A stretch of 29,629 nt of DNA. Origin: a virus. The notes under the pieces were generated by a model. That model had not been told where the DNA came from, did not search any database, and was given only the letters and a program-made list of their open reading frames with translations. Below are positions 3,081 through 29,629 of this stretch, piece after piece. Both the position numbers and the translations under genes were made by a program. Each line of letters opens with the position of its first letter. Position 1 is the stretch's first letter. The stretch lies in IMG/VR virus record IMGVR_UViG_3300026094_000025, positions 1 through 29,629 of that record, one strand, 5' to 3'.

Positions 3081-6000
3081 TTATTCGCCTTTTAAGAACT
3101 GTGCGAAAATGTTCTCTGAATCTTGTAGTGAGTCACCAGTTAAAATGGTACTATCACCTAAATCATACCACGTTGAGTTAATAGCGTTTTCTAACTCATT
3201 GGCACGACTACCGTCATTAACTCCATCACCAGTTGCATGACTAAACACGCCAGTTCCAGCAGTCCCTCTACGAAGACCAGTAACTGTATTATTAATCAAG
3301 TCACGCTCACGGAATGTTATACGTTCTCCATTTACAAACAATATGCCAAAGCGGGCTTGGCTTAGTTCTGGGTCTTCCAATACACTCGCATCATTTAGAT
3401 AAATTGTGTCATCACCGATTAATAATGGTTGAGTTAGTGTTGTTGAACTGCTACTAAGCATTCTATACACCGATTGATTTCCACGCATATCATCAAACAA
3501 TTTAAATGTTAGTGCGATTGGTACAACCGATTGCCCAAATATAGTAATGGCGATAATATCGCCTGCAGCGGCAGAAAGTCTTGTGACTATCAGTATATCT
3601 TCACCATCCCGCGTTTCAATCACAAAATCTTCATTAGGTAACAATCTTTCTCCGTTATATGTTACCCACGTTCTATTTTCTATAACACCTGTTGCTCCAA
3701 GACCAAATTCTGTTATAAACTCTGCTGCATCACTTGATTCATCGTATCTGTCAGTATCATATGGCAAAATATCATACGGAACAACGTCAGTAGATGTAGC
3801 CGCTGTTGGTCCTTGGAATACAAACGTTTTAAGCCGTTGCTCACGAGTGTCGTTCCATGTTCGAATCGTAACGTCATCGCCAGAATTTAATTCAACCGAC
3901 TCTCTAATTATTAGCGAGTTTCCAGTTAATACATAATCGCTCAATGACCTAACATATATAGATATTCTGTCTCCATTTGTAGGAGGAGTTGTCAAAGTTA
4001 TTGTTCGTATAGAACTGCCATCAGATGGATTCAAATCAAATTCATCAAATCCCAACTCTTCGCCGTTAATATAAACATCAACATCTATTTCACCAATTTG
4101 GGTAGGATCAATAGCGTCATCATCTCTTGATACGTTATATGTTAGCGTTGATTGGTCTGCAATATGATGAATACCATTTGGAGGTTGTAGCCGGAATCCA
4201 TTCACTTCAACAATAGCATGACTTTGATTGGCATACTCTAAATCATTCTGTAAAATAAACTGTCGATCACCAGTGTATTCAAATGATTGAAGTCGTGGGT
4301 AAGAGTAACTGAACTCCTTCTCTGTCTCTCCCAGTACAAATACCGAAATCAATGCACCATCTGCAATACTTGAAAGTAGCTCAATCTCGGTATTTGGTGC
4401 TGAATCGCTATAATCAAAGTTGGTGTATTCTTCTCCATCTACCAAAATTAGTATCTCAGTGATTTCTTCAAACTTTACTGAAATCTCGATGGTATTATCA
4501 ACAATGTCTGCACTGTTAAACGATTTAGATAATAATTGATTGCCTCCCCCAAGACCAAACGCCTCAAACCTAACAATGTTCCCCGTTCCTGCACCAGTTA
4601 ATAAAGTGATCGTATTATTGACCCAATCAATATCATAAGCATCTTGAGGAAGTGTTGCACCAGATGTCATATTTGTCACCACAACTGCTGTAATGGGCGA
4701 GCCTAATTCAGGAAGAGAATATGTACGCCTAAGAGATGCTGATTCAACTTCAATGTTCTTTACCGCAACGTCCCATGCATGTCCATTATTATTGGTGTCA
4801 AACCCAACTCGCGTTGACACTGTCATATCTAGCGTATCAAATGTCGAGCCGGGTACCAATTCTTCTGGAGCATGACTGGCATAAGTGTCAATAAAGTCTC
4901 CGCCATTTACTTCAATGCCGTATGTGCGAGTATCTTCTAGAGCACCATCATATGCGGGTGCTGCATCTGTTCCCAAGAATGTGTCTGTGAAATTACTATA
5001 ATATTCAACATCCAAAATCTTATCACTGTATGTTGGGCGTGTGATAGTAGCGGTTAATGTTATCTGTGTATCAGCATCAGGTGCTGTATCAAATGTAATC
5101 GTACCCACCGTAACAGGAGAGAAAGAATCTAATACAAAATCTGTATCTTGTGTTTGCTCTATTCCATCAATCGCTACTGATACACTGATTATGGTTGTCG
5201 AAAGCCCGTCGTCTGGGTACCCTAGTTCATAAGTTGCAGTCGACCCATCGCCGATGTATTCAGCTGAAACTTCATTTTCAGGTCCAACATCAATATTATC
5301 AAACGGGGTTATGTCAAATGCCGATATATCATATCCAGTATTTTCGTTAAACCTCGGGGCAGACACCTGCACTCCCGGATAATCAATGCCATCCACCAAA
5401 AGAGCCAAATCATCACCAGTTGTTCGCGGTGCTGGTACATAATACCCCGCAGTTCTGTCAAGACCACTTAACTCACCAGCTGGTACCCTTTGATAGTTTT
5501 CAAGAACAAATTCATCACCAGAGAACAATATACTGCTGTCGTTGGTATTAATAACACGATAAACTTCGTTTTCATAACGCACCAAATCATTTTCAGCATA
5601 AAAAGTATTTGGTTGCCAATCTGAAACTGTACTCTGATATTCGCACCTGTCATAGCGAATAGTAACAAGAGCGTTTCTTGGTCCTTGTGTTTCCATTATC
5701 GGAACAACACGTGCCCCAGAACCATTGCCACCAACTAAGTTAATGGTTGGTGTATTAATGTAACCGGAACCAGATTCTACAACTTCCACACTAGTAACTC
5801 TGCCAAAGACATCCAGTCTTGCACGGGCGGTTGCTGGAATATCTGCGTCACCAATAATTTCTACTTCTGGCGGGATGTTATACCCAGAACCACCGGCAAA
5901 TACTGATATTGATTCTATTTTTAATAAACGATTATTAAACCATTCTGAATATTTTCCATCTAACCATGTGTCAGAATCAATATCGACGCTGCTAGTGGTG

Positions 6001-9000
6001 CTCAATCTTCCAGTTTCATCTAATACTGGACTTACAAATTGATTCTGTTCTGAATTCCATTCGGCAGGCAAGTCAAAATCAGTAATATCACCTCGGAAAA
6101 GTTCTTCGCCTTGATATTTGAGATTAAACTGCCTTACTTTAACATGATACGGCTTGACCTCATTGATGTAGTCAGCAACAAATGTCTGGTTATCTTGTTG
6201 ATATACTCTGAAAGGCTCTAGTGACCGGACTGTATGATCTACATCAACGAGACTGGTTTTTTCTAGCCACTCTGGTGTAGTCTGTTCTGAAAGAATATAA
6301 TTAAATAGCAGAACGAGAGCAGCATTTCTTTCTATTCCTAGCTCATTGATTAAGAGGTCATCGTTGATTGCCTCAATGATCTCACGAGTTTCGCGAACTG
6401 GTCTTTCGTCAAAGAATTGAGCATCAAAGACTTCATTATCAAATCCATATCTTCCAGCAGTGTTATCTGCTATAACCAAATCAAATTGTATAGTCGCAGA
6501 TTGAGCAGCGACACGCGTCCATGAATTATTTTCTCGGAGATATATCTCCCACTGCCCTGAACCATCATTATCTACACGGACCAACTCACCATTGGTCGCA
6601 TTCAAAGTTTCTAAGTCTGAAAAAACATTAACGGTTTGGTCTAGAAGAGTTTCACTCGAATAACCTTCACTGTACCAATCTACAAAATTCCAATATTCTT
6701 TAGTATTGAATGTTTGTATTCTAACTTGATTTAAGTTTTTGTTTTCATCTAATTCGTATATTGACCACAATCCATCAACAGTATCATCGTTTAATATAAG
6801 ATAACGATATCCAGTTGGTACTATTGATAAGTTTTGATATTCTAGTTCTAGTAATGTTTCAAGTTTTTTATTCCACTCTCCACTAGCAGTATCTGGGATA
6901 GGTTCTTCAGAATTTAATCGTGTAAAGTCACGTGACTCAGCAATAGGAAGAGTTAGCAAGACACGATTTACCTGACTTAAGTAGTTATGCAACGCTGATT
7001 CGCGATCTTTAAACATACTTTGTCTAGGTCTGAAATCTATGCCATACAACTCTGATGGTGGCAATGTTACATCTGGTACCAAGTTCCCTTCCGTATCTGC
7101 CCCACTTAAACTATCTAGTAATTTTCTGTATATTTGTCCTGTGACAAACCCATCAGCACGATTCTCTGGTATTAGTTCATATTCAACATGAACTTGATTT
7201 TGAGTTTCTATGCGATCAAACTCCACGTGAAGAATGCTGTTCTCTCGGTTTATCAACTCTTTGCAGTTGAAAAGTCCAATTGTATTAGTGGATATAGGTG
7301 CGAGGTAAGGAATACCACTTGAACGCGGCGATTCAATATACTGCTGCACTGCATTAAGCCCGAGAGTTTTTCCTGCGTTTCTGAATATGGAATCAGTATT
7401 TGACACCCAGAAATAGTATTGGTTAGATATTATTTGATTATCAAACACACCGCCAATGACAGTAAATGACTCAGTATCTTTGGGAACACCCGGACCCTGA
7501 TATTGTGAAGGAGGAACATCACTTTCAACCCACTGGTACAACTCAACTTCACTGCCTGATACTGCTTGTGCCCAACGTCTGCTTGCATAGGTAATGTCAC
7601 TAGAATGATACTCTGTTAAACGATAGTTAGAAACATCCCACCAAATTTTACCGACGTGTTGATCACGCCAAGAATTTGCATTTGACGTGTTTGGTCCTTG
7701 ATTATATCCTGCTGGATCGAGCGGAGTAATGAAATCAATGTTCTCTTTTGCAGCACCTAGTATTTTTCCTTGTAGAGGGTCAATCCAATCAAGGTATCTT
7801 AATACGCTATTGTTGTCCGCGTCATACACATATATCGAGTTAATAAGTTTGCTATCTACTTCTTTAACTTGTTGATCAATGGCTTGCCACGCGGGTTTGC
7901 GGTCTAGATTATTAAATACGTAGATTTCTCCTGCATTTCGGTTGGGTGCCCCAATCAATAAACGACCATTGACATAATCAACATCAAAACCAAACTTATC
8001 CCCAGTAGATATTACATTTACAAACATTTGCTGACCAAAAACAAATTTACCGGGGTTAAGAGGGCTAGCATTTACACTTGGTAAAAAGTCAAACGTATAT
8101 ACTGTACCAGCTTCTGCAACTGTATCAATGAATGTTGTTGCTCCATTGTCAAAACTTAGATCACCTTCATTTGTCCATGTGCTTGCGGTTGTTAATGTTG
8201 CACCGGGTGAGCCAATGACTAAATTATCAGCTTCAGTATCAATTTGGACAATGTGCCCAAATCGTGCACTTGTTTGAACTTGTGGCGGAAAGATTGTTTG
8301 TGTGCGACGAATAGGTGCAAACCCTAGATCGCTAAATGCTGTGCCTACGCCCGGAAGAACAAGTAATTTATTAAAATCTGCTTGTGCTCTTGGTTCTACT
8401 GCATTTATAACCAATCTGCCTTGTGAATTTATACTGGCTTGCACATTTGATATATTTGCATCATTAATGTCTTGTGCAAATACCGCAGTCCATGATGATT
8501 CAACCCAAAAGTCTGTATTTGTAATTGCTATACCTGCAGGAACATCTTGTATTGCTAGATAGACATTACCACCAGACAAACGGAAGTCACCTTCGCTGTG
8601 TGTAGCTGCAGCAACATGTGATGCAACGGCAGATACTTCAACATCAATATTATTGATTCTTACTGTGTTTCCGGGTGTCAATTCTGCAGTTGCAGTGGTT
8701 GATGTCGCAATCCCATAAATTCTTGGGCTATTAACAAATCGTTCTGCTGATCCACCATTTTTAACTTGACTACTATCCCCCGGAGAACCAATGTATAAAC
8801 TACAATTTGTAGGACACTGGCTCAGGCTAAATCCAAATTCTGCACCTTCTTGCTGAATTTCTGCGGTTAATGTTTGTAATTTAGTAAATTCTGCGGTTTC
8901 TACTTCTAATACATCTCCAATCTCAAAGTTGGAGTTAGAAATATCAATGTTCGCATTTGTTAAAATTGAATATTCACTTTCCAGATTGTATTGAGGCACT

Positions 9001-12000
9001 GAATTTAATTCAGAAGGAATCAAATGCTTACCATTAATCTGTACTGGAATAACCGACGTATTAAGAATGTCAGAGTCACGGCGTGGGTCATAAACCGTTT
9101 GTGTTCGACTGTCTATTTCAAGCCGCTCAACAATTCTGTCAAATACGAAAACTTGTCCCGGCGTTTGTTCATTGCCGACGCAACCAATTGCTACTTGTCT
9201 TCCATCTGTGGTGGTGTCAAGACTAGAACCAAAATTGTTTAAAGTAAATTCAAGGTCGCCAGAAACCGCACTATTGGCCGGTGCGTTTAATGTAACGCTG
9301 TTACTATCAGCATCAGTCGATACCACGTATTGACCAGAATTAAATCCTGTTCCCGATACTACCATTTGCGGAACAATACCAGCGACATCATTTAGTGTTA
9401 TTGTTTTATCAGCACCAGATACATATGTTTTAGTTTGTGCTGGTATCTCAATAGTATTCACGTGTTTAAAATGTGTGCGGGCCCTTACTAAAATATCTTG
9501 GTCGATTATCTCTGAATCACCACCAACAAATTCAATTGTATTTGCTGCATTATCAAAAGTATAATCTACCCCAGCACGCAATATAGATCCGTTTTTAAGT
9601 ACTGTAAAACTATCGATATGATCATCTACGCCAATTAGTTGATCAAGCACTGGGTTAAACACTGTTATGGTGCTGCCCGTAATAGGTGCAGAATCAAAAC
9701 TTAGTATTTGTCCGGTTATCGTATAATCTGTGGATAGGGTTTGTTCCGTATTGTCAACAAAGACTCGCAAACTAGAAGCATCGATCACTCCAACAGAAGT
9801 AATATTAAAGTCCGTTGTTGTTCCGGTTCCACTGCTTCTGTAAGTTAAAGAAATTTGTTCTTTTCTTGTAATTACTACGGGTTCTCCTGCACCCGGTGCC
9901 GTTGCAAAGCTAATAAGATTGTCTGTTGTATTGACAACATAATCGCCATTTGTTCTTGAAAAAACTTTATTATTAACAATTACAGAAAGCTCATCACCGC
10001 TATTCGATGACCCAATAATGATGCTACCATCAAAACTAAATTCGGTAGTAGCACCATCTGCAATATACCTAATCGATTGTGATTGTCGATCGACGCGTGC
10101 ATATACATAAACACGGTTCGCACCCGGAGCAGAAACATATGCCCATCGTTCATCGTCACTTATGGCAACCGACTCACCAAACTTATCGCCATCACTGCCG
10201 GTAGAGTCTAACAATAATTGTGTTTGATCATACTGTGGATTTGCTGGGCTTTCTTTAAATATTACACCAGCATATCCTTTTGCATTGTCTGACTCTGGAG
10301 CACCAACTATTGCCCAATTAGAATTTCCCGCCGCGATTGATCGTCCATAACCTTTTATTTCTGGTGTTCTTGAAGACAATACAGCAACAGAATCATAAGA
10401 CCCGTCTCGATTTAAAATATATGCAAATACTTGTCCTGCAGAATCCGTGCCACCAGCTGGAGCACCTATGAGGACCCCTGCACCGTCAAATCCTTGTGCA
10501 ATTGCAGCACCATACTGATCTGTATCCGCTTGTGGGATTAAGGTGGTAGTTGTGCTAAATGGGGCTTGTTTTTCTAATACCTGCCATGTGCCGTCACCAC
10601 TATCATCTACCCATGCACGATCACCTGACTCCAATGCGGTGGAATAACTAAGATTAATTACATCACTTGGCTGTTTAACTCTTGCTGATTCAAATGCTAA
10701 AGCAATGCCATCACCGGTTTCTTGTGTCTGTAAGCTCGGAAGACTAAAATTAATAACAGCAGTAGTAATACTAGGCACTGATTCAATTTCGTATGTTCCA
10801 TCAACAAGATTAGAAAAGAATTTTATAATAATTCTATCGCCAACCGACAACCCGTGTGGTGATGTGAATGTGATTCTAGATTGTCCATCAAGATTATCAT
10901 CAAGTTGTATTATTTTTGTATCTAATTTTATTATATAATAAACATTCCAGTCAAAATCAGAATCACCAGCGACCCATACCGTAGTTCCGGGCCCAATTGC
11001 ATCAATAACTTCTTGATTGTTTAGCTGGTTTAATGAAAATACTTGGAAATCAACGTCATCGCTGTTGACATATCCAGCTGTAGGAAGATTTGTATCTGGA
11101 CGATTGCGTGTTAGTTCAGGCAATATGTTTGTGTCAGTAAAGCGTCTGCTTTCTTTGTATAACTGGTCAAACCGAACAGTTTGATCAGCGACCGTATCAT
11201 TGCTGTTGTCAATTATAGAAATTGTAGATGGATTCGCCTGCAATAGTGGGCGGTTTAATGCTATTTCAAAATATGAACGGTTTGCATTAGCACCATAGGT
11301 GCCTTGTTTTACTGCCCAGTTCTCAAATACATTGTACTCAGCCTTTTCTTTACCAAAATCTGCTGCCGATAATAGTTGCGTTGCTGGAAGCGTTCCCTTT
11401 GCTGCAATGAAATTGCTGTATATGTTAGTTTGAGTGATATCGTCTAAATTAAGATTCTCTAGATAGTCCCGTGGGCGGAATCCTATTATGCCCAAGCCTA
11501 ATAAATCTGCATCATTATTAAGATTTGCAGAATTTTTATTGTAATAGTCAAGAGCATCATCGGCTTTAGTTGCAATGTTTGGTAGTAGTCCTTGACGACT
11601 ATCGTCAAAATCACTTAATAACCAATTGTTATAATCAAATTCTTCTGAAGGCTCAACTAACTCTCTTGCACTCCACAACTGATTTTTGAAACGTACAATT
11701 TCGCCGCGTGCATATTTTTTATTAGGTTGCCATTCTTCAATATTTGAATCCGAAATAATGAATCCCGGAGCGTCAGGGCGACCTGCCCAATTTGTTGTGC
11801 GTGACCCTGAAAGTAGTAGACGTTTCTGGCGGTTCCCCGTTGCTGGGTCATATAGCAAATCAGAAAATATACTAGCGTTGTCGAGTATTAATAGTTGTTC
11901 ATAGTTGACGAAGTTTAAATCGGCATATCCGATAAGTTCTTCAGTCAGCACCTGAATTTCTGTCAAATCCCCACTTCGGTCAACATTATAGTTAATCGGT

Positions 12001-15000
12001 TTAATTGGTCGGCGATTTTGATTAAGAAGAATACGTGGGTCACTTGAAATATCTTCAAGAAGACCTGCTGCTCTGTTTACTGTAATTTTTTCAGCACTAG
12101 GGTTTAGGTTTATAATATTATTGGTTGCCCAGCCTTGCTGACTCCAATACACAAACTCTTTTGCCATTTGTAACCAATCAAGCACATATCCATTACTACG
12201 AGAGTCGAATTGCATTCCTCTGGCACTGAGTTGTCTGCCATAACTTATTAGAAAGTCAACAACCGCGTCTCGTGTCCTAAATGTATATCCGTATGGAACA
12301 CGAACAATATCTGTTTTAAAATCTTTTGGGTATCTGATTGTGGTGTCATTAATTGCAAAAGAACTAAAATTTCCATTTGGAATACTTTCTGTAATTTCAA
12401 AATATGGCCGTGCTGAGCTATTTCCCCAAACTGTCCATCCATCATCACTGACTTGTACAATTACTGAACTAAAAGATATACGAGCATCAGGTTCATTGCT
12501 GTATAATAAAAGTTGATAGCTCTCGTCAGGAATCATCAAGCTGCTGTTTTGGGTATTGGGGGTAAAGTTTTCAGCAAATAATTTTAGATACTGCTTATCA
12601 GTAAATCCAGCTAAACGATAGCAGAGCCTTACATCAATATTTGAAAAACAATCATTGATACAGTCTTGTCCAGTCTCTCCTAACTGTTGCTCATAATCTG
12701 CAATCCAGTTAAAGTAACTATGTTGAGGATCTCCTTGACCATAACTCATCAAAGCTGTTACGTCGAGTCTGCTTCTAGAATCAAACAGATACTGATCAAA
12801 TTCTGGCTCTAAACGATAACGATCACGATCAATACCAGTCGCAAAGTATTTTGCTGGTCGTGTGAGTGCTATTAACTTTTGTATCACAAACGGATAGGTG
12901 CTGCTGCGTCTCCAAGCACTCTCCACCGGAGCACCATCTCCAAATACCCATCTTTTTCTAAAGTCTTGTGCATTGTAACTGTTAACCACAGCAGACAGGG
13001 GTGACTTAAGATTTCCATGCCCATCAACAGGTATGACTTCTAAAAGCCCATCACGTACATGTGGTTCACTAATGTACTCACCACTTGGGTCTCGTACACG
13101 CCCATCTGCAATATCTCCCCACAAAATTAAGTTATTTTCAGTGTAAGGTGCAGGACCATATGTGTCATCCCACCAAGTTGGTTTGTTGACCAAACCAAGC
13201 ATCTCCCAAGGGCGTGTATGTGGGCTGTCAGTATCATAAAAATACTCATAAATTCCACGCCAATGACCCTGCAAAATTTCTCCGTCAATAATTTCATTAG
13301 TGGTAGAATAATTGAACGTAAATTCATTTTCAGACAAGTATGTCTGTTCTTTATAATCCAATCGGTTAAGCCCAGACCAAGTTAAAAACTCTGTTATAAG
13401 AATATTATTAATTTCACCGATGCTATAATCTGTTTCTCTAAACTTACCGGGAACAATATCGCTCTCAAGAATTGGTGTTTCTGATGATACTTTGAGGTTA
13501 TTATAAATTCTTGATTCAAATTCTAAAATCACATCATCTCGGATATCGTTGTATGCTAATGTAATTGAACCATCGTGGCCCTGTATCACATCTGCAGGCT
13601 CGACAAAAGTATCATCGCTAAACTTACGTGGCTTGTAGGCTGGATATAGTCCTATCTTAGTCGGTGTGTTGGGAACAAAACTTGAGTTTGTTTTTGTGTA
13701 TTCTCGTATACGAACAACATCACCTACTCCAAGAGCAGAAGTAATGGTAATTGATGGGGTGTCAGTAGATACCACATAATCTTCATCTTTGATTAATATG
13801 GTATCATTAACATAAACCATCAAACTTTGACGGTTTGCACTCGAAAAATCATACACATAGATTGTGTCAAACTCTTGACCAGTGACCTCACTTACTAGTG
13901 TTTCACTATCAACATACTCGATTCCGCTTGGTAGCATATCACTATAATAAAAAGCACTATTTTCACTTTTTTCTGATGCAATTTGTGCAACAACTTTGTC
14001 AAGAATATCCCAAGCAGGGGAAAATCCAAAGTCTTGATTAGTAACTGCATCAATTATTCTGGTTTTGTAAGATTCATATGCCCTTGCGTTGAATTCCAAT
14101 GCCTCAAAAAATTCAATTCTGCCAGATCGCAATACTGCACCAGTAGGAATCATTGAACTACTATGTTGGATTATATCTGTACCAAAGGGGACAATGTTCC
14201 CTAAATCGCGACTATTGTTTGTTCCATTAATTTGCCCACGCAATTCTGGAATATTCTGAACTAGTGTTTGGTAATGATTTCTTATAGTACCAAGCGTTAC
14301 CGTTTTTGATTCTTCGTTAAATGGATTCTTTTCTAAATTTTCTGGTATCTGGTAAAAGCCAATTTCTGATGCTTTGTTTGATAGAACACGAACTTCAACA
14401 ACAGAATCATTTTCTGGTTCGTTGGTGAAACTTATTATCGTACTATCGCCGCTAACCTTCACATTATATTGCGATGGTGGAACAAATTCAGTACCTATCG
14501 AAATATTAACTGATGGTACAGCGTTTACCTCAATAACTGGAACATCTAAAGTAATATCACTGCCTGATTGATATATAAAACGGAATACTTGTTTTTGTTG
14601 GACAAGAGAATTTGCCTTCTGCCACCCAATACGTCGTTGATATGTGTTATCCTGACTATATTCTCTAACATATCCAGAATTGACTAGTCGTGTTTCTCCT
14701 GTACGATTATCCACATAAGAGAACGTATCAGAGTAGAAATTATTATCAAATACAATATCACCAACATTATTAATGGTTAAGAATTCTAGCGGGAATCCTA
14801 ATATATCGTCTTCAACGCCTGTACCAACTGCATATGAAAAGAGCTTAGATCCTGAAAAATCACTTCCAGAATATTTGGTTTGGTCACCAAAACTTGTTTC
14901 TTTATCATCGAATACATCAAAAAGAGGCGACTGATTGACACTGGTTTTTTGCTGTGTTGGTATCCATATAGAACCATCATATCTAAAACTCTTGCCTTGA

Positions 15001-17093
15001 CTTTGGATGCCGCTCTTAATAACAATTGTGTCATCTGCATCTATTGTTATCGGCAACTCGTTTAATAGTACTTGTTGATTGCCATCATTATTTGGATCTT
15101 TAAGTGATACCTCATAGATTTTATTTCTAACTCTATCGTCAGTATCATTTGCAAAAATAATACGTGTTTGGTCTAAGAGAGTAACACCATCAATGCTATA
15201 ACCAAGACTACCATTGACATTAGTAAATGCATCCGTTTGACTAAAATCTATAATATCAACCGGAGGTTTCGCAACATTTCCAAAATTGAAAAGTCGTAGT
15301 CCTGCTCTAAATTCTAATATTGGTCGGCGGGCTTTTTGGTCATTATCAATAAGTGTATTTGTGTTGTTGTATTCTGCGGTTAAGCGAATAACATCTTCAT
15401 GGAACCATCTGTTCGAGCGGGTCCACGGATTCAAGTCTGGGCTTGCACGGTTGATAGTAAAATAATCTTGTTCTTGTGGTTGATTGAGAGATTCCTCAAA
15501 GTTGCCAACATCAAATGGGAATTGGTCGAATCTTATTGCATCACTATCAGTGTAAGTCTCTGGTGTGACGAAATTATCAACTGGCAATAACTGAATGCTG
15601 GTGCCAACACCTTCAACATAATACTGCTGGTCAGCAAAGGTAGAAGGCTCAACCAATCCTCTAAACTGGACTTTTAATCCGTTCGTAAATTCAACGCCAT
15701 TAGGGCTTGTATAAAATCTACTTCCTAGAATTTCATCAACTTCGAGCAATCCTCGTTGCTCTTGCTCTACCAACAATATACGACCAAATAATTCAGGATT
15801 ATTTGAATCTTGATAGTATAGGGTGTCTTTTATTGCCGATAATAGTGGAATTTCTTCAAAATTATTCTCTGCATCACGATAAAAACTTCTGTTGGCATTT
15901 TCATTTCCAAATTCTACAGAAAATTTGTTTAAAACAGGAATTTCCTGCTCAGATGTTAGCTTTAAATAATCTCTGCCATCATTGCCCTCAATGACTGCGA
16001 TTTTCCATATACTCTTGATTTCGGATAAATTTGTTATCGCTGATGTTTGATCCCATGAGGTGGTATCAAACGACCCAGTAGTACCATCAAGAGTGTCATC
16101 TCTATTATCAAATTCTTCTGTAAACCCGCTTCCATCTGTAAAATTTCCACTGGTCAATAAAGGATCAAAAAATGTTGTTTGGTTCCACGATCCACTGTCA
16201 GCTGGTTGTGTTATAACTAATGTTTTACCATCAAGGTCGGTGATACCATCTATCCCGCCATATTCACTGAGAAATTCATCGAGGTATCGGTTATTAATTT
16301 CATCAAAGCCAATATCAGTTATTAAATCAACTGTTCCAACACTTTCTAAATTATAAAAGAAACTTTGCTCATTACGCTCTGGCACATTAAATGTAATAGT
16401 GCCTGTGTCCGAACCATTATTAACAACGCCCAATACATTGCGTGATGATTTGTTTGGTGATTCTTCTAGAACACCTGAAGTTCCCGGCTCGCTCTGAATC
16501 CAGAGCGGATTACCGGGTTGATTAAGTTCAAATGTATAACTTCCGCCGCGTACAAGTGTTATAACTGGATTGTTCCCTGCCAATCCTTCTAACGAGTAAC
16601 CAGATGCTTGTCTATCAACTGCAAAACTATCTGTAAATGGCACTTCTGTGGCGGAAACATCAACAGCATCTGGTCCTGCTGGTAGCCAATAATAACGATT
16701 AAAGTTACTGAACTTATCAAAGTCAATGAATGGATCCCACGCTGCGTATTCAGCTTTAAACAGCCTGTCATGACGAGATACATCGGCACCGTTATTGACT
16801 AATGCATCGAGCATTCCGGGATAAGTTATGGCATCGGTTGCTTTGCTGGATTCGTTTTCTGTGAACACCACCGCAGGCTCAAGCTGATAATTCGCACGGT
16901 TCGCTGTCAATTCATCTATGAAATTATCAGTAGTTTTATAGCCCGGCGTATTAATTCTGCCGATATACCCCTGAATACGCTCGAACTCTTGATTGCGTGA
17001 TAATTGGTCTAGAGTGGACGATAAGAATTTTCGATTTGGTTCTGTACGAAAAATCTCAGGTAGTAAATCAATTGTTCTTGTTAGTTGTGCCAT
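3081..17093 (-). CDS. Giant virion structural protein (4670 residues) in the gp7 wedge position
   Basis: A single uninterrupted frame of 4670 residues directly after gp6 (stop and start form TAATATG, so translation is probably coupled). T4 has the 1032-residue wedge gp7 at this place; I see no clear gp7 similarity, so wedge assignment rests on position. In order: N-terminal helical segment with PEIFRTEPNRKFLSSTLDQL (12-31); cupredoxin-like segment 176-258; RPWEMLG and YGPAPYT near 1291-1320, typical of marine phage giants; a Cys cluster near 1472-1490; a chitin-binding-like module 1784-1828; FG-GAP propeller about 2190-3065 with insertions; GKIWWD near 3150; EPFRVYQQDNQTFVADYINE near 3625, recurrent in marine T4-like structural proteins; two GSGY repeats 3731-3800; another W..Y..DLVRY module near 3824; a string of beta-sandwich repeats 3940-4520; C-terminal IYLNDASVL and RITFRERD...GLRRGTAGTG (4561-4625). 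No enzyme motif seen. Probably an extended baseplate arm or appendage touching the cell surface (inference). Confidence 0.85.
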   Translation of the reverse strand: MAQLTRTIDLLPEIFRTEPNRKFLSSTLDQLSRNQEFERIQGYIGRINTPGYKTTDNFIDELTANRANYQLEPAVVFTENESSKATDAITYPGMLDALVNNGADVSRHDRLFKAEYAAWDPFIDFDKFSNFNRYYWLPAGPDAVDVSATEVPFTDSFAVDRQASGYSLEGLAGNNPVITLVRGGSYTFELNQPGNPLWIQSEPGTSGVLEESPNKSSRNVLGVVNNGSDTGTITFNVPERNEQSFFYNLESVGTVDLITDIGFDEINNRYLDEFLSEYGGIDGITDLDGKTLVITQPADSGSWNQTTFFDPLLTSGNFTDGSGFTEEFDNRDDTLDGTTGSFDTTSWDQTSAITNLSEIKSIWKIAVIEGNDGRDYLKLTSEQEIPVLNKFSVEFGNENANRSFYRDAENNFEEIPLLSAIKDTLYYQDSNNPELFGRILLVEQEQRGLLEVDEILGSRFYTSPNGVEFTNGLKVQFRGLVEPSTFADQQYYVEGVGTSIQLLPVDNFVTPETYTDSDAIRFDQFPFDVGNFEESLNQPQEQDYFTINRASPDLNPWTRSNRWFHEDVIRLTAEYNNTNTLIDNDQKARRPILEFRAGLRLFNFGNVAKPPVDIIDFSQTDAFTNVNGSLGYSIDGVTLLDQTRIIFANDTDDRVRNKIYEVSLKDPNNDGNQQVLLNELPITIDADDTIVIKSGIQSQGKSFRYDGSIWIPTQQKTSVNQSPLFDVFDDKETSFGDQTKYSGSDFSGSKLFSYAVGTGVEDDILGFPLEFLTINNVGDIVFDNNFYSDTFSYVDNRTGETRLVNSGYVREYSQDNTYQRRIGWQKANSLVQQKQVFRFIYQSGSDITLDVPVIEVNAVPSVNISIGTEFVPPSQYNVKVSGDSTIISFTNEPENDSVVEVRVLSNKASEIGFYQIPENLEKNPFNEESKTVTLGTIRNHYQTLVQNIPELRGQINGTNNSRDLGNIVPFGTDIIQHSSSMIPTGAVLRSGRIEFFEALEFNARAYESYKTRIIDAVTNQDFGFSPAWDILDKVVAQIASEKSENSAFYYSDMLPSGIEYVDSETLVSEVTGQEFDTIYVYDFSSANRQSLMVYVNDTILIKDEDYVVSTDTPSITITSALGVGDVVRIREYTKTNSSFVPNTPTKIGLYPAYKPRKFSDDTFVEPADVIQGHDGSITLAYNDIRDDVILEFESRIYNNLKVSSETPILESDIVPGKFRETDYSIGEINNILITEFLTWSGLNRLDYKEQTYLSENEFTFNYSTTNEIIDGEILQGHWRGIYEYFYDTDSPHTRPWEMLGLVNKPTWWDDTYGPAPYTENNLILWGDIADGRVRDPSGEYISEPHVRDGLLEVIPVDGHGNLKSPLSAVVNSYNAQDFRKRWVFGDGAPVESAWRRSSTYPFVIQKLIALTRPAKYFATGIDRDRYRLEPEFDQYLFDSRSRLDVTALMSYGQGDPQHSYFNWIADYEQQLGETGQDCINDCFSNIDVRLCYRLAGFTDKQYLKLFAENFTPNTQNSSLMIPDESYQLLLYSNEPDARISFSSVIVQVSDDGWTVWGNSSARPYFEITESIPNGNFSSFAINDTTIRYPKDFKTDIVRVPYGYTFRTRDAVVDFLISYGRQLSARGMQFDSRSNGYVLDWLQMAKEFVYWSQQGWATNNIINLNPSAEKITVNRAAGLLEDISSDPRILLNQNRRPIKPINYNVDRSGDLTEIQVLTEELIGYADLNFVNYEQLLILDNASIFSDLLYDPATGNRQKRLLLSGSRTTNWAGRPDAPGFIISDSNIEEWQPNKKYARGEIVRFKNQLWSARELVEPSEEFDYNNWLLSDFDDSRQGLLPNIATKADDALDYYNKNSANLNNDADLLGLGIIGFRPRDYLENLNLDDITQTNIYSNFIAAKGTLPATQLLSAADFGKEKAEYNVFENWAVKQGTYGANANRSYFEIALNRPLLQANPSTISIIDNSNDTVADQTVRFDQLYKESRRFTDTNILPELTRNRPDTNLPTAGYVNSDDVDFQVFSLNQLNNQEVIDAIGPGTTVWVAGDSDFDWNVYYIIKLDTKIIQLDDNLDGQSRITFTSPHGLSVGDRIIIKFFSNLVDGTYEIESVPSITTAVINFSLPSLQTQETGDGIALAFESARVKQPSDVINLSYSTALESGDRAWVDDSGDGTWQVLEKQAPFSTTTTLIPQADTDQYGAAIAQGFDGAGVLIGAPAGGTDSAGQVFAYILNRDGSYDSVAVLSSRTPEIKGYGRSIAAGNSNWAIVGAPESDNAKGYAGVIFKESPANPQYDQTQLLLDSTGSDGDKFGESVAISDDERWAYVSAPGANRVYVYARVDRQSQSIRYIADGATTEFSFDGSIIIGSSNSGDELSVIVNNKVFSRTNGDYVVNTTDNLISFATAPGAGEPVVITRKEQISLTYRSSGTGTTTDFNITSVGVIDASSLRVFVDNTEQTLSTDYTITGQILSFDSAPITGSTITVFNPVLDQLIGVDDHIDSFTVLKNGSILRAGVDYTFDNAANTIEFVGGDSEIIDQDILVRARTHFKHVNTIEIPAQTKTYVSGADKTITLNDVAGIVPQMVVSGTGFNSGQYVVSTDADSNSVTLNAPANSAVSGDLEFTLNNFGSSLDTTTDGRQVAIGCVGNEQTPGQVFVFDRIVERLEIDSRTQTVYDPRRDSDILNTSVIPVQINGKHLIPSELNSVPQYNLESEYSILTNANIDISNSNFEIGDVLEVETAEFTKLQTLTAEIQQEGAEFGFSLSQCPTNCSLYIGSPGDSSQVKNGGSAERFVNSPRIYGIATSTTATAELTPGNTVRINNIDVEVSAVASHVAAATHSEGDFRLSGGNVYLAIQDVPAGIAITNTDFWVESSWTAVFAQDINDANISNVQASINSQGRLVINAVEPRAQADFNKLLVLPGVGTAFSDLGFAPIRRTQTIFPPQVQTSARFGHIVQIDTEADNLVIGSPGATLTTASTWTNEGDLSFDNGATTFIDTVAEAGTVYTFDFLPSVNASPLNPGKFVFGQQMFVNVISTGDKFGFDVDYVNGRLLIGAPNRNAGEIYVFNNLDRKPAWQAIDQQVKEVDSKLINSIYVYDADNNSVLRYLDWIDPLQGKILGAAKENIDFITPLDPAGYNQGPNTSNANSWRDQHVGKIWWDVSNYRLTEYHSSDITYASRRWAQAVSGSEVELYQWVESDVPPSQYQGPGVPKDTESFTVIGGVFDNQIISNQYYFWVSNTDSIFRNAGKTLGLNAVQQYIESPRSSGIPYLAPISTNTIGLFNCKELINRENSILHVEFDRIETQNQVHVEYELIPENRADGFVTGQIYRKLLDSLSGADTEGNLVPDVTLPPSELYGIDFRPRQSMFKDRESALHNYLSQVNRVLLTLPIAESRDFTRLNSEEPIPDTASGEWNKKLETLLELEYQNLSIVPTGYRYLILNDDTVDGLWSIYELDENKNLNQVRIQTFNTKEYWNFVDWYSEGYSSETLLDQTVNVFSDLETLNATNGELVRVDNDGSGQWEIYLRENNSWTRVAAQSATIQFDLVIADNTAGRYGFDNEVFDAQFFDERPVRETREIIEAINDDLLINELGIERNAALVLLFNYILSEQTTPEWLEKTSLVDVDHTVRSLEPFRVYQQDNQTFVADYINEVKPYHVKVRQFNLKYQGEELFRGDITDFDLPAEWNSEQNQFVSPVLDETGRLSTTSSVDIDSDTWLDGKYSEWFNNRLLKIESISVFAGGSGYNIPPEVEIIGDADIPATARARLDVFGRVTSVEVVESGSGYINTPTINLVGGNGSGARVVPIMETQGPRNALVTIRYDRCEYQSTVSDWQPNTFYAENDLVRYENEVYRVINTNDSSILFSGDEFVLENYQRVPAGELSGLDRTAGYYVPAPRTTGDDLALLVDGIDYPGVQVSAPRFNENTGYDISAFDITPFDNIDVGPENEVSAEYIGDGSTATYELGYPDDGLSTTIISVSVAIDGIEQTQDTDFVLDSFSPVTVGTITFDTAPDADTQITLTATITRPTYSDKILDVEYYSNFTDTFLGTDAAPAYDGALEDTRTYGIEVNGGDFIDTYASHAPEELVPGSTFDTLDMTVSTRVGFDTNNNGHAWDVAVKNIEVESASLRRTYSLPELGSPITAVVVTNMTSGATLPQDAYDIDWVNNTITLLTGAGTGNIVRFEAFGLGGGNQLLSKSFNSADIVDNTIEISVKFEEITEILILVDGEEYTNFDYSDSAPNTEIELLSSIADGALISVFVLGETEKEFSYSYPRLQSFEYTGDRQFILQNDLEYANQSHAIVEVNGFRLQPPNGIHHIADQSTLTYNVSRDDDAIDPTQIGEIDVDVYINGEELGFDEFDLNPSDGSSIRTITLTTPPTNGDRISIYVRSLSDYVLTGNSLIIRESVELNSGDDVTIRTWNDTREQRLKTFVFQGPTAATSTDVVPYDILPYDTDRYDESSDAAEFITEFGLGATGVIENRTWVTYNGERLLPNEDFVIETRDGEDILIVTRLSAAAGDIIAITIFGQSVVPIALTFKLFDDMRGNQSVYRMLSSSSTTLTQPLLIGDDTIYLNDASVLEDPELSQARFGILFVNGERITFRERDLINNTVTGLRRGTAGTGVFSHATGDGVNDGSRANELENAINSTWYDLGDSTILTGDSLQDSENIFAQFLKGE
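3520..5275 (-). other. String of beta-sandwich repeats in the C-terminal part of the giant protein
   Basis: Approximate residues 3940-4520 contain about five modules of one plan: a start like YIGDGSTATYELG, a strand with V.(V/I)(D/N)G.E, a D(Y/F) near the middle, then ITF..AP..G..I.V. Examples are around VAIDGIEQTQDTDFVL, ILVDGEEYTNFDYSD, VYINGEELGFDEFDL and VTYNGERLLPNEDFVI. Similar copies occur earlier, inserted in the propeller (VIVNNKVFSRTNGDYVV, VFVDNTEQTLSTDYTI, VLKNGSILRAGVDYTF). They are probably Ig- or FnIII-like spacers or adhesion domains; boundaries are by eye. Confidence 0.55.
7899..10526 (-). other. FG-GAP (integrin-alpha-type) seven-repeat beta-propeller region of the giant protein
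   Basis: Seven copies of (F/Y)G.(S/A)(V/I/L)...........(I/V)(G/S)(A/S/C)(P/V)G followed by a (V/I)(F/Y)(V/A)(F/Y) strand begin near residues 2194, 2248, 2304, 2619, 2752, 2945 and 3033. Clear ones are YGRSIAAGNSNWAIVGAP, FGESVAISDDERWAYVSAP, FGHIVQIDTEADNLVIGSPG and FGFDVDYVNGRLLIGAP. The spacing of repeats 1-3 (about 55 residues) is regular; the longer gaps later hold beta-sandwich modules (between 3 and 4) and an EGDFRLSGGNVYLA module (between 5 and 6). Canonical DxDxDG calcium loops of integrin propellers are not evident. Confidence 0.7.
16320..16568 (-). other. Cupredoxin-like segment lacking metal ligands in the giant protein
   Basis: Residues about 176-258: PVITLVRGGSYTFELN, PLWIQSEPGTSG, LGVVNNGSDTGTITFNVPE and FFYNLESVGTVDL. 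The layout (strand, GxxYTFE, hydrophobic W/H-P-x-W turn, VTNNGT.xGTITFxVP, YY) resembles the plastocyanin-like domain frequently seen in marine phage and bacterial surface proteins, but the usual C..H copper ligands after the last strand are absent. It is likely a structural beta-sandwich. Recognition is from memory of the pattern. Confidence 0.5.
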
Positions 17094-25991: not shown

Positions 25992-26294
25992 CTAAAACCC
26001 TAGTGCCACGCGTAAATTTTCTATTTGTGGTAATCTAATACTTACACCTGTGCGAAAGTCTCCTAAAGGATCTATTAGCGTATTGGGATTACGCTGTGCG
26101 AACACCCACCAAAGACGTGATTCACCATATAAATCGTGTGCCAACAAATCTGGTCTAAACTCATATATTGAATTTATTTCAAACTTTTTGTCTGTTGGGT
26201 CTTTGGGGATAGGACGGTTTGACATAAACCCAAGCCGACCCGAACGCACTTCAGTGTCAAAATATGGACTATACTGACTGTATTGTTGTGCCAT
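25992..26294 (-). CDS. gp53: Baseplate wedge protein gp53
   Basis: 100 residues from the ATG at 26294. The upstream gene's stop overlaps this start as TAATG, which favours it over the TTG two codons earlier. The signature FRPDLLAHDLYGESRLWWVF, followed by AQRNPNTLIDPLGDFRTGVSIRLP, is the conserved LysM-like part of T4 gp53, which locks gp6 and gp25 in the wedge core. T4 gp53 is about 196 residues, so this is a short form consisting almost only of the conserved domain; the N-terminal 35 residues (SPYFDTEVRSGRLGFMSNRP) form the small lead-in. It lies between gp48 and the hub-like gene in one run of minus-strand genes. Confidence 0.87.
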   Translation of the reverse strand: MAQQYSQYSPYFDTEVRSGRLGFMSNRPIPKDPTDKKFEINSIYEFRPDLLAHDLYGESRLWWVFAQRNPNTLIDPLGDFRTGVSIRLPQIENLRVALGF

Positions 26295-27259
26295 TACCAA
26301 AATCCTCGTTTAATAAGTTTGCCCGATGCAAAATCACGCAGACTAAAGTCTTCACTAACTTGTTTTCTGCTTTGAATTGGCAATAGTGTCAATGATATCG
26401 TCAACTCAGTAGGAACATATGTTGGCCGTTGGGTTGTGCTTGATATTCTATTTCGAGAAACAAAATCTGAAATTTCGCTAGGATTTGTTGATAGGGTTTC
26501 AGCAGGAGCACCCGGCAACAATGCTGATGACGCCAGACGGGCTGCTGTTCCGTCAAACTGCCCAAGAAAACTAGCAGCGGTCTTTGCCCAAAAACTAGTG
26601 TCTTGAAGTGGGTCGCTGCTCTGCGGTTGATTAAAACTGCTTGGTGCAGCGGCACGGATATAATCTACATCGCTAGGCAAGTTATAGTTAAACTGTGAGA
26701 GAGCACAAGGATGCAAGTTGTATTGATAATCACCCAAGCCATCCAAATACAATAATGGTGGTGGCGTGCCTCTTTGGTCGTCTTGGCCATAAAACATTTT
26801 AGTGGCAGAGCGGAAAAAATGTATCACAGCCAAGATATAATCTGCTTCTTCTGAAGTTTGAGCTGTAAATGTTGCTTGCATTAATATTTCACCGGGATAA
26901 CTGTTTTGATAGAAGTATCCTCGGTAATTGGAATGCGTCAAATCTTCGTTGTTGTAGTTGGCGTAATACACCGTATCAATCTGCGGCGTATAAGGAAATA
27001 TAACACCATTGGTGGATTGCAGTGGTGCCAGAATACCCGGATCTGGTGCTTTATAAAGATAATTGGCAGATGGTGCAATTGACAATTTTACACGCCAATC
27101 AGCATCGGCGGGTGACCGGCCCGGACGTTGAGCTCTTGACCCTTGCGTCGGTTGGGGGGTACTGTTTGCCGGACCCGGCCCAACTGGAGCCGGGGGAGGC
27201 GTTTGTTCCCCTGCTCCGCTAGGGAATGCTGGGTTAGATGGTGATATTATTGATGCCAT
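26294..27259 (-). CDS. gp48: Baseplate tail-tube cap protein gp48
   Basis: 321 residues. Residues 1-50 are Pro/Gly/Gln-rich and probably disordered. The conserved part starts DWRVKLSIAPSANYLYKAPD (54-73), then GVIFPYTPQIDTVYYANYN, DLTHSNYRGY, ILAVIHFFRSATKMFYGQDD and NYNLPSDVDYIRA, and ends FASGKLIKRGFW. I recognise this as the tail-tube cap protein called gp48 in marine T4-like phages; gp48 and gp54 are related tube-like proteins, so gp54 is the alternative. In T4, gp54 and gp48 sit on the hub and start tube polymerisation. It is the first gene of the leftward tail block, preceded by TATAAATA six bases before its ATG and by no ribosome site. Its stop overlaps the gp53 start. Confidence 0.8.
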   Translation of the reverse strand: MASIISPSNPAFPSGAGEQTPPPAPVGPGPANSTPQPTQGSRAQRPGRSPADADWRVKLSIAPSANYLYKAPDPGILAPLQSTNGVIFPYTPQIDTVYYANYNNEDLTHSNYRGYFYQNSYPGEILMQATFTAQTSEEADYILAVIHFFRSATKMFYGQDDQRGTPPPLLYLDGLGDYQYNLHPCALSQFNYNLPSDVDYIRAAAPSSFNQPQSSDPLQDTSFWAKTAASFLGQFDGTAARLASSALLPGAPAETLSTNPSEISDFVSRNRISSTTQRPTYVPTELTISLTLLPIQSRKQVSEDFSLRDFASGKLIKRGFW

Positions 27260-27265
27260 ATAGCA

Positions 27266-27273
27266 TATTTATA
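27266..27273 (-). promoter_or_regulatory. Late promoter TATAAATA driving the tail gene block
   Basis: Perfect match to the T4 late -10 element on the minus strand, in the divergent gap before gp48. Six bases (TGCTAT) separate it from the gp48 ATG at 27259, so the expected transcript starts within a base or two of the start codon. It would be read by host polymerase carrying gp55, which is encoded immediately on the other side. One base separates it from the -35 box of the opposite promoter. Confidence 0.8.
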
Positions 27274-27274
27274 C

Positions 27275-27303
27275 TTGACAAAAACACCCAACATAAGTAC
27301 AAT
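27275..27303 (+). promoter_or_regulatory. Sigma70-type early promoter of gp55
   Basis: TTGACA (27275-27280), 17-base spacer, TACAAT (27298-27303): a perfect -35 and a one-mismatch -10 at ideal spacing, 32 bases before the gp55 ATG. Host housekeeping polymerase would start near 27310, leaving a leader with AAGGAG. It likely drives gp55, gp47 and gp46 together. Confidence 0.78.
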
Positions 27304-27316
27304 ACACAATTGACCC

Positions 27317-27322
27317 AAGGAG
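27317..27322 (+). promoter_or_regulatory. Ribosome binding site of gp55
   Basis: AAGGAG, 12 bases before the ATG at 27335; a strong core but slightly long spacing. It supports this start. Confidence 0.65.
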
Positions 27323-27334
27323 TAAAACGAGTTT

Positions 27335-28264
27335 ATGGCAGACCAAAAGCCAAAAAAGAAAGTCAATTACCTTAATAATAGAGATATTTTAAAAGAGATA
27401 CACAAGAGCAAAAATACTTATTGTTCATACCGAGATCGAGAAACTGACCATCAGTTTGATATTATTTTGCCTGCTGTTGAAAAAATAAACTTACGCACAG
27501 TGGCACAAGCTCGAAGAAATCGTGCAGCACGGCTAACAAAAGAAACCGGCGTCAAACACGATGAAAAGAAAATATCAAATACCGAGCTAGTATTCCGAGT
27601 GACCACTTGGGATCATATTCCCATGGTGCCAAAGAAAAAAGCAAAGAACTCACGCTCACCTATCCCAAAAAAGCGTAAGCTTGAGGACATTATGGACTTT
27701 GATGATGAGTTTGACAATGATGTGGATGTAGAAGAAATTGATCCAACCAATGACCCAGATGTGGAAATGGTGCGTATGAAGATGAATTTTCCTCCATTCT
27801 TTCATTACCGTATTGATGAAAACCGGCAGCCATATCTGGTGGGCAAAAGCCATTGGAAGGGTGATTTAAAAACCGGATATTTTTCTAAAGACCACGGCAC
27901 AATGACTCACAAATTGGCAACAATGTTTCTTAAATTATGTGAGCGATACGCAACTCGCTTTAACTGGAGAGGGTATAGCTACAACGAAGAAATGCGTGGT
28001 CAAGCCTTGCTGCAGTTAAGTCAAGTGGGATTACAGTTTGATGAATCAAAGAGTCAGAATCCGTTTGCGTATTACACAGCTACCATAACGAATTCTTTTA
28101 CTCGTGTGTTGAATACAGAGAAAAAGAACCAAAGCATTCGTGATGATATTTTGGAAATGAATGGATTGGATCCATCTTGGACACGCCAGTTTTCAAATAC
28201 TTCAGAAGCCCAACTATTAGATGGTACTGCTGCATATCGTAGTACTACTGGCAAAAAATCATAA
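27335..28264 (+). CDS. gp55: Late-transcription sigma factor gp55
   Basis: 309 residues; T4 gp55 is 185. The conserved C-terminal part (about 200-270) holds the minimal sigma region-2-like core: KLCERYATRFNWRGYSYNEE, MRGQALLQLSQVGLQFDESK, SQNPFAYYTATITNSF and TRVLNTEKKNQSIRDDIL, close to the gp55 of marine T4-like phages. gp55 replaces sigma70 on host polymerase and recognises late TATAAATA promoters, as found upstream of gp48. The N-terminal 150 residues are an extension: basic start, then a very acidic stretch (116-145) opening with LEDIMDFDDEFDND. In T4 the sliding-clamp contact is a hydrophobic-acidic tail at the C-terminus; here the C-terminus is polar (STTGKKS) and the acidic epitope is internal. 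It has its own sigma70-type promoter and is followed at 30 bases by gp47. Confidence 0.88.
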   Translation: MADQKPKKKVNYLNNRDILKEIHKSKNTYCSYRDRETDHQFDIILPAVEKINLRTVAQARRNRAARLTKETGVKHDEKKISNTELVFRVTTWDHIPMVPKKKAKNSRSPIPKKRKLEDIMDFDDEFDNDVDVEEIDPTNDPDVEMVRMKMNFPPFFHYRIDENRQPYLVGKSHWKGDLKTGYFSKDHGTMTHKLATMFLKLCERYATRFNWRGYSYNEEMRGQALLQLSQVGLQFDESKSQNPFAYYTATITNSFTRVLNTEKKNQSIRDDILEMNGLDPSWTRQFSNTSEAQLLDGTAAYRSTTGKKS

Positions 28265-28294: not shown

Positions 28295-29311
28295 ATGTCA
28301 AATCTTTTTAAAAAGGCTGTGGTGTTTACAGATATTCACCTTGGCCAAAAATCAAATAGTTTTTTACACAACCAAGATTGTGAGCAGTTTGTTGATTGGA
28401 TGATTGCCCTCGCAAAAGAAGAAGGGTGTGAAACCTGTATTTTTGCAGGGGATTGGCATCACCATAGAAACTCAGTAAACTTACAGACGTTAAGCACTGG
28501 TATTCGTGCACTTGAAAAAATATCAAAAAACTTTGATCAAGTGTTTATGATTCCGGGTAACCATGATTTATACTACAAAGACAAACGTGATGTACATGGC
28601 ACAGAATGGGCTAAACATCTTCCTAATGTTCATGTTTTAAATGAATGGTACGAAAGCGGTGATTGTATTTTTGTTCCATGGCTAGTTGGCGATGAACACA
28701 AAAAGATTCGTGGTGCTGAAGCAAAGTATATGTTTGGCCATTTTGAATTACCACATTTTAAAATGAATGCTATGGTTGCGATGCCAGACCATGGTGATCT
28801 AAAACACGACCACTTCTCTGGTATTGAGCAAGTGTATTCAGGTCATTTTCATCTACGCCAGCAACAGAAGAACATTTATTATATTGGCAATGCTTTCCCT
28901 CATAACTTTTCTGACGCAAATGACAGCGAAAGAGGGTGTATGATTCTAGAATGGGGCGAAAAAGAAATGTTTCATGCTTGGCCAGACCAACCACTATATA
29001 ATACTTTTAATTTGTCACATTTAATTGATAATGCTGATGCGATTTTAAAACCAAAGATGCATGTACGAGTTCCTCTTGATATTGAAATATCATATGAAGA
29101 AGCAAATTATATCAAAGAAACATTTGTTGAAAAATATAAGTTGCGTGAACTTGCACTAATGTCGAGCAAGCAATCAGATATCGGTCACGACCATGCACCT
29201 GAACAAGTTCATTTTGAGAGCGTAGACCAGATTATTACTGACCAAATCACAAATATAAACTCAGAATTTTATGACCCAAACCTACTACTAGAAATTTACA
29301 GAGCCCTATAA
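28295..29311 (+). CDS. gp47: Recombination endonuclease subunit gp47 (SbcD/Mre11-like)
   Basis: 338 residues, matching T4 gp47 (339). All metallophosphoesterase motifs are present: D13-x-H15 (FTDIHLG), G52-D53 (FAGDWHHH), G88-NHD-91 (IPGNHDLYY), GHFE at 148-151 and SGHFH at 182-186, so the two-metal nuclease site is intact. With gp46 it forms the Mre11-Rad50-type complex that resects DNA ends for recombination-dependent replication and helps degrade host DNA (known for T4). It lies 14 bases before gp46, and the pair follows gp55 in one rightward operon. No good Shine-Dalgarno precedes the ATG (TTTTTTAACTAACTTT), so translation may depend on coupling. Confidence 0.95.
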   Translation: MSNLFKKAVVFTDIHLGQKSNSFLHNQDCEQFVDWMIALAKEEGCETCIFAGDWHHHRNSVNLQTLSTGIRALEKISKNFDQVFMIPGNHDLYYKDKRDVHGTEWAKHLPNVHVLNEWYESGDCIFVPWLVGDEHKKIRGAEAKYMFGHFELPHFKMNAMVAMPDHGDLKHDHFSGIEQVYSGHFHLRQQQKNIYYIGNAFPHNFSDANDSERGCMILEWGEKEMFHAWPDQPLYNTFNLSHLIDNADAILKPKMHVRVPLDIEISYEEANYIKETFVEKYKLRELALMSSKQSDIGHDHAPEQVHFESVDQIITDQITNINSEFYDPNLLLEIYRAL

Positions 29312-29325
29312 ACTAGTCAAATTAT

Positions 29326-29629
29326 ATGATTAAAATAAAAAATCTAACAGTAAAAAACTTTATGTCGGTAGGCAATACTACCCAAGCCGTCAACTTTGAT
29401 CGTGAAGATCTAACGCTAGTTCTTGGTGAAAACCTTGATTTAGGTGGTGATGGTAGTAGAAACGGTACCGGAAAAACTACTATAATCAATGCGTTATCCT
29501 ATGCACTGTATGGTCAAGCACTAACCAGTATCAAAAAAGACAATCTAGTCAATAAAACCAATAATAAAAATATGATGGTTAGTCTGGACTTTACTATTAG
29601 TGGAATAGACTACAGAGTAGAGCGTGGTC
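29326..29629 (+). CDS. gp46: Recombination endonuclease subunit gp46 (SbcC/Rad50-like), 5' part only
   Basis: Open from ATG at 29326 to the window edge: 101 residues of a protein that is about 560 in T4. It begins MIKIKNLTVKNFMSVG, matching the T4 gp46 start (..NIMSVG), so the start is secure. The Walker A motif is GSRNGTGKTT at 43-52, the ATP-binding loop of SMC/Rad50 ATPases, followed by INALSYALYGQ as in the family. The ATPase subunit opens and drives the gp47 nuclease. The coiled coil, zinc hook, signature motif and Walker B lie beyond the edge. The 14-base gap to gp47 has no ribosome site. Confidence 0.96.
   Translation, partial: MIKIKNLTVKNFMSVGNTTQAVNFDREDLTLVLGENLDLGGDGSRNGTGKTTIINALSYALYGQALTSIKKDNLVNKTNNKNMMVSLDFTISGIDYRVERG

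Follow-up and report, generated by a model that had tools for sequence, protein, structure and literature searches.

A late sigma factor gene and a divergent virion gene share a closely packed pair of predicted promoters in a giant-phage DNA fragment of 29,629 bases (hereafter the window, meaning the whole stretch analysed). Within the 75-bp gap between the two genes, a sigma-70 promoter pointing towards the gp55-like sigma factor gene and a T4-type late promoter box pointing the other way lie a single base apart. We lean towards the view that these overlapping divergent promoters act as a hand-over switch in which gp55 caps its own synthesis; with regard to gp55 itself, shut-off by its own product is the best reading of the arrangement. 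The features on which this reading draws are listed below.

3081-17093, minus strand: single open reading frame of 4,670 aa in the tail gene cluster
25992-26300: baseplate wedge gp53-like protein, neighbour of the virion gene
26294-27259, minus strand: virion structural gene (phrog_12050), putative target of the late box; cultured jumbo phages have homologues at the corresponding position
27259-27260, minus strand: predicted late transcription start, from T4 numbering (PMC2988020) and the 6-nt spacing
27265-27305: conserved interlocked core, with 39 of 41 bases the same in the window and its nearest relative, L082, and diverged flanks
27273-27266, minus strand: T4-type late promoter box TATAAATA, positions -13 to -6, facing the virion gene; read from the sequence, identical in L082, with a TAAATA core in relatives
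27275-27280, plus strand: early -35 element TTGACA, separated from the late box by one base (27274)
27281-27297, plus strand: 17-bp spacer between the early -35 and -10 elements
27298-27303, plus strand: early -10 element TACAAT, read from the sequence
27309-27311, plus strand: predicted early transcription start for gp55, about 7 nt past the -10
27317-27322, plus strand: ribosome-binding site AAGGAG of gp55, read from the sequence
27335-28264, plus strand: gp55-like late sigma factor of 309 aa, ATG at 27335 (phrog_12791, phrog_234, T4 gp55 chain 7d7c_F)
28295-29311, plus strand: gp47, SbcD-like nuclease subunit (phrog_100), downstream of gp55
29326-29628, plus strand: 5' part of a gene for a gp46-like ATPase, truncated where the window stops and assigned by synteny with relatives

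The original prediction had named the rightward gene as gp55, the sigma factor of late transcription. Its homology in sigma region 2 confirms this: profile searches matched phrog_12791 (E 1e-70), phrog_234 (E 1e-25) and the T4 gp55 chain 7d7c_F (E 2e-6, residues 45-117). The leftward gene had been called gp48. That name was not confirmed, as the only match was to phrog_12050, 'virion structural protein', and profile searches gave neither a Pfam nor a solved-structure match. The leftward tail and baseplate cluster also holds genes for an 865-aa virion protein and for gp5-like, gp25-like and, by position, gp6-like proteins, while gp33 and gp45 are absent from the window fragment.

Direct reading confirms that the early and late boxes lie one base apart on opposite strands. 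The early promoter agrees with the sigma-70 hexamers at 11 of 12 positions with a spacer in the 16-18 bp range, is conserved in L082 and, with both strands of the 29.6 kb considered, is the sole sigma-70 match that reaches 11/12. Its -35 is TTGACA and not the TGAAACG element found in phage CBB. TATAAATA conforms to the -10 box of T4-type late promoters and occurs exactly once in the whole window. Shuffling the whole window yielded a mean of 2.8 copies, so the 8-mer is not unusual by itself at such base composition; the argument is carried by position and conservation. When the 75-bp gap was put through 20,000 dinucleotide shuffles, TATTTATA arose 143 times, a sigma-70 promoter scoring 11/12 or better arose 62 times, and the two arose together once.

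The gp55 of L082, which we also read from its whole 26.8-kb record (contig G001), is 89% identical to that of the window, and the same boxes and spacing are kept there between clearly diverged flanks. A scan for the exact box spacing of the window returned L082 alone with a neighbouring gp55 of the same kind, and a megablast search of the region against phage records gave no match. Elsewhere on G001 (~15401-15456), the gap of another divergent gene pair contains closely neighbouring boxes of the TATAAATA-like and TAAATA types.

A sister clade carries the two boxes in fused form. It was first exposed by a pattern scan for tight boxes, which itself selects for overlap, so we took counts from a sample chosen by gp55 protein similarity; the query alignment was built from pattern-found members, which defines the clade and not the spacing. 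In this sample, 64 of 67 distinct upstream regions read TATTTA(G)TTGACW-N17-TATAAT, with the caveat that loci inside one clade are not independent. The gap between the boxes is 0-1 bp in 63/63 measurable loci, while the late box lies mostly 15-31 nt from its start codon and the early -10 lies 21-56 nt from gp55. A box gap that stays fixed while both flanks vary is the strongest sign of selection on the overlap itself. Among the loci examined for this count, fused boxes stood at gp55 in 94 cases versus 7 elsewhere. A tree of 112 gp55 proteins placed the window within a different, wide-spaced clade (99/83), which makes its tight form separate from that of the sister clade, although the long branch of the window leaves its exact position unsure.

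The wide-spaced clade, labelled 'freshwater' for convenience only, was collected through similarity to gp55 or to the virion protein. Of the 76 loci whose upstream sequence is long enough, 74 contain both a TATTTA late box and a TTGAC-type early promoter (one TTGTTT). The two hexamers are all but invariant, the promoter has a spacer of 16, and the boxes are mostly 32-38 bp apart. The expectation that relatives would conserve the arrangement was thus borne out for the two boxes, both of which are kept, but not for the one-base interlock, which is not universal. Between the late box and TTGACA lies a moderately conserved block, AACGGCGYAGTTTA, that resembles the promoter spacer of the sister clade (TAACTGCGTAGTTTA). 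In L196, two tandem TTGACA promoters, one of each kind, precede gp55; the first is fused to the late box, and the locus may represent a transitional form linking the tight arrangement to the wide one. Judging from such sequences, the wide-spaced clade may retain a remnant of the interlocked promoter together with a newer promoter downstream.

Right after the gp55 -10, 84 of 98 freshwater loci (for example, L028, L018 and L016) carry a rightward TAA(G/A/C)TA, in the exact form TAAATA in 32 and as TAAGTA in 45. The motif was absent behind nine other strong sigma-70 promoters, and neither the window nor L082 has the rightward TAAATA element. The motif may represent a rightward late box or some other element; as a late box, TAAATA or TAAGTA at this place could sustain gp55 late in infection, which counts against shut-off in that clade. 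We rejected TAAGTA as a general late-box variant, as other genes lack a 16-18 nt peak for it. Gaps of 12-13 bp in L083, L096, L136 and L144 were set aside as chance second TATTTA matches, with a normal late box further upstream, and helical phasing of the spacings (about 2, 4, 34 and 46) was dropped because 36-39 bp is common.

Cultured phages show how widely the layout extends. The divergent arrangement is common to PA5oct, MIJ3, Munch, 121Q, BF, Hallingskeid, Kaldavass, CBB, GAP32, RaK2, XaC1, XbC2, Vibrio 2.275, SCTP-2 and others; in Atu_ph07 (L398) and Phosso (L396), a nucleotidyltransferase-type gene separates the virion gene from the shared promoter region. TATTTA points towards the divergent gene in 20/20 cultured intergenic regions, some of which come from near-copies of one another, versus 5.3 on average and at most 11 in shuffles; TAAATA on the plus strand occurs in none. 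SCTP-2 has two copies of TATTTA, less well placed. In 14 of the 20 records, the late box either abuts a TTGACA directly or is separated from the early -10 by 27-29 bp. The enteric-type phages have the 27-29 bp distance and, in most, TGGAACG or GGGACA at -35, with TGGAACG at that position in relatives such as CBB and GAP32. Atu_ph07 carries TATTTAGTTGACA, PA5oct has 23 bp between its boxes, and in Vibrio 2.275 the late box is 38 bp from the -10. Tight spacing is found in lineages with different -35 types (TTGACA, TTGACT and TGGAACG/GGGACA). In cyanophage S-PM2 and phage OC, gp55 sits in an ordinary uvsY-uvsW operon and the divergent layout is absent, indicating that it is dispensable for T4-type phages.

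In T4, the late box spans -13 to -6 and no -35 element is used (PMC2988020). On this scale, the late +1 of the window would fall at ~27260, the early -35 would occupy late positions -20 to -15, and the early -10 would occupy -43 to -38. The predicted early and late starts are ~50 bp apart, and by geometry an early footprint (about -55 to +20) would cover both the late box and the late start, an overlap of the sort expected of mutually exclusive divergent promoters. With normal footprints, two polymerases should not fit together, and simultaneous occupancy of both promoters appears implausible. Early in infection, host RNA polymerase with sigma-70 would bind TTGACA-N17-TACAAT and make gp55 and gp47/gp46. 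Once loaded on the polymerase core, gp55 would open the TATAAATA late promoter, and the late complex would extend over the early -35 and a large part of the early -10. Because that complex would cover the early promoter, late occupancy should keep the early promoter from firing again, so that gp55 synthesis is capped as the tail genes switch on. Conversely, sigma-70 polymerase at the early promoter would cover the late box and delay late firing here.

Mutual exclusion, as originally predicted, fits the close overlap in the window, where geometry suggests that polymerases should exclude each other. The nearest clade keeps its boxes apart, so a strict interlock is not needed there. The activating clamp of T4 lengthens the upstream footprint by 13 bp (PMC2988020); if this holds here, a late complex might extend as far as the early -35 in wide-spaced relatives too, and exclusion in the clade of the window would depend on the larger, clamp-bound late complex. 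Titration is a possible complication, since many templates exist after replication and occupancy per copy need not suffice to shut off gp55.

The late box also bears on where the mRNA of the virion gene begins. In the window and L082 it lies 6 bp from the virion gene ATG (27259 in the window), and TAAATA-N5/6-ATG recurs on the minus strand at the gp25-like (20903) and gp6-like (20496) genes. Relatives have TAAATA exactly 5 bp before the ATG at 12 genes, beside a main peak at 16-18 bp. On the T4 scale, a spacing of 5-6 bp places the start of the mRNA at the AUG or 1 nt before it. By this analogy, the late mRNA of the virion gene is probably leaderless, and the box positions imply leaderless late mRNAs in part of the phage group. 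We also observed TAAATA 5-6 nt before a late-gene ATG in L082, L007, L014, L025, L029, L051, L090, L098, L100 and L111.

The overlap might instead be mere packing in a short gap, with early transcription already off by other means when gp55 acts. Intergenic regions are short throughout, the wide-spaced clade manages without the tight form, and T4-type phages turn off early transcription by other routes. Intergenic economy in phages likewise favours overlap and also counts against a switch. Yet the 0-1 bp gap between the boxes is constant in the sister clade while both flanks vary by at least 16 bp, tight spacing turns up more than once, in separate lineages and beside different -35 types, and the cultured members, with genomes of 280-490 kb, are under no obvious pressure to save 10 bp. 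We consider packing a rather unlikely explanation.

Two further readings keep a regulatory role but assign it differently. Since the geometry is symmetrical, exclusion could operate mainly in reverse, with sigma-70 polymerase silencing the tail operon until host sigma is displaced and gp55 self-limitation being incidental; no sigma-70 match in the window is stronger than the early promoter, and a polymerase bound there must have the late box within its footprint. A late promoter is inactive without gp55, however, so that an extra block would be needed for a short interval only, and we find this quite improbable as the main function. The composite could also be mainly the operator of another regulator, such as a phage middle-phase activator or repressor, whose site would comprise the spacer stretch (TAAC..GTA) and AACGGCGYAGTTTA, the late box being secondary. 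The sister-clade spacer does have invariant or near-invariant positions that are not expected of a sigma-70 spacer, a similar block between the boxes of the wide-spaced clade is nearly confined to the locus (46 matches there versus 11 elsewhere), and the CBB report describes a gp55 promoter of a distinct class with a TGAAACG -35 (PMC5259590). Against an operator, the window and L082 keep both promoters without these conserved blocks, and the TAAATA box stands at a start-compatible distance from the virion gene, either 5-6 or 16-21 nt; we give this reading very little weight.

We therefore retain the hand-over switch, with gp55 limiting its own synthesis, as our preferred reading of the window. 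Its extension is more tentative: these sequences may reflect a repressor-free feedback switch conserved in jumbo phages whose hosts differ widely, either retained or rebuilt around other -35 elements and in some cases joined to leaderless late mRNAs, a proposal about which we are nearly evenly divided. The passage from early to late transcription is poorly studied in large T4-type phages that lack their own RNA polymerase, and a conserved 40-bp element could limit the late sigma factor and at the same time switch on the operon that this factor targets. As the element is small and occurs in cultured phages that grow on laboratory hosts, the hand-over question is directly testable with purified components.

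Among known systems, the late promoters of T4, served by gp55-RNAP, gp33 and the gp45 clamp (PMC2988020), share the 8-bp TATAAATA box, and here a gp55 homologue is encoded beside it. In contrast to the ordinary gp55 operon of S-PM2 and OC, the late box of the window interlocks with the early promoter that serves the sigma gene itself. The CBB report predicts RpoD-like, TGAAACG-type (middle-like) and ATAAATA late promoter classes, notes gp55 downstream of the TGAAACG-type class and, in the passages covered, makes no mention of overlap with a late promoter (PMC5259590). CBB and GAP32 resemble the window in gene order (gp53 and the virion gene diverging from gp55-gp47-gp46) and in having a predicted promoter before gp55; they carry the ATAAATA late motif and, by our own reading of their sequences, a late box 28 bp from the early -10. 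The gp55 -35 of CBB is TGAAACG-type, whereas that of the window is TTGACA. The RaK2, MIJ3 and Atu_ph07 papers do not mention promoters, and the literature covered on divergent or overlapping phage promoters contains no report of such an overlap; coverage was partial, making novelty provisional.

The sister clade, Atu_ph07 and the cultured enteric-type jumbo phages share with the window a late gene divergent from gp55 and a late box beside the early -35, but differ in a gap of 0-1 or about 4-8 bp rather than 1 bp, in a TATAAT -10 and in a virion gene with a longer leader and a ribosome-binding site. A more distant parallel is lambda PRM/PR, where divergent promoters overlap with mutual occlusion. 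Like those promoters, the pair in the window stands back to back, too close for two polymerases. Unlike in lambda, one promoter of the pair yields the very sigma factor by which the other is read, so a dedicated repressor would not be required.
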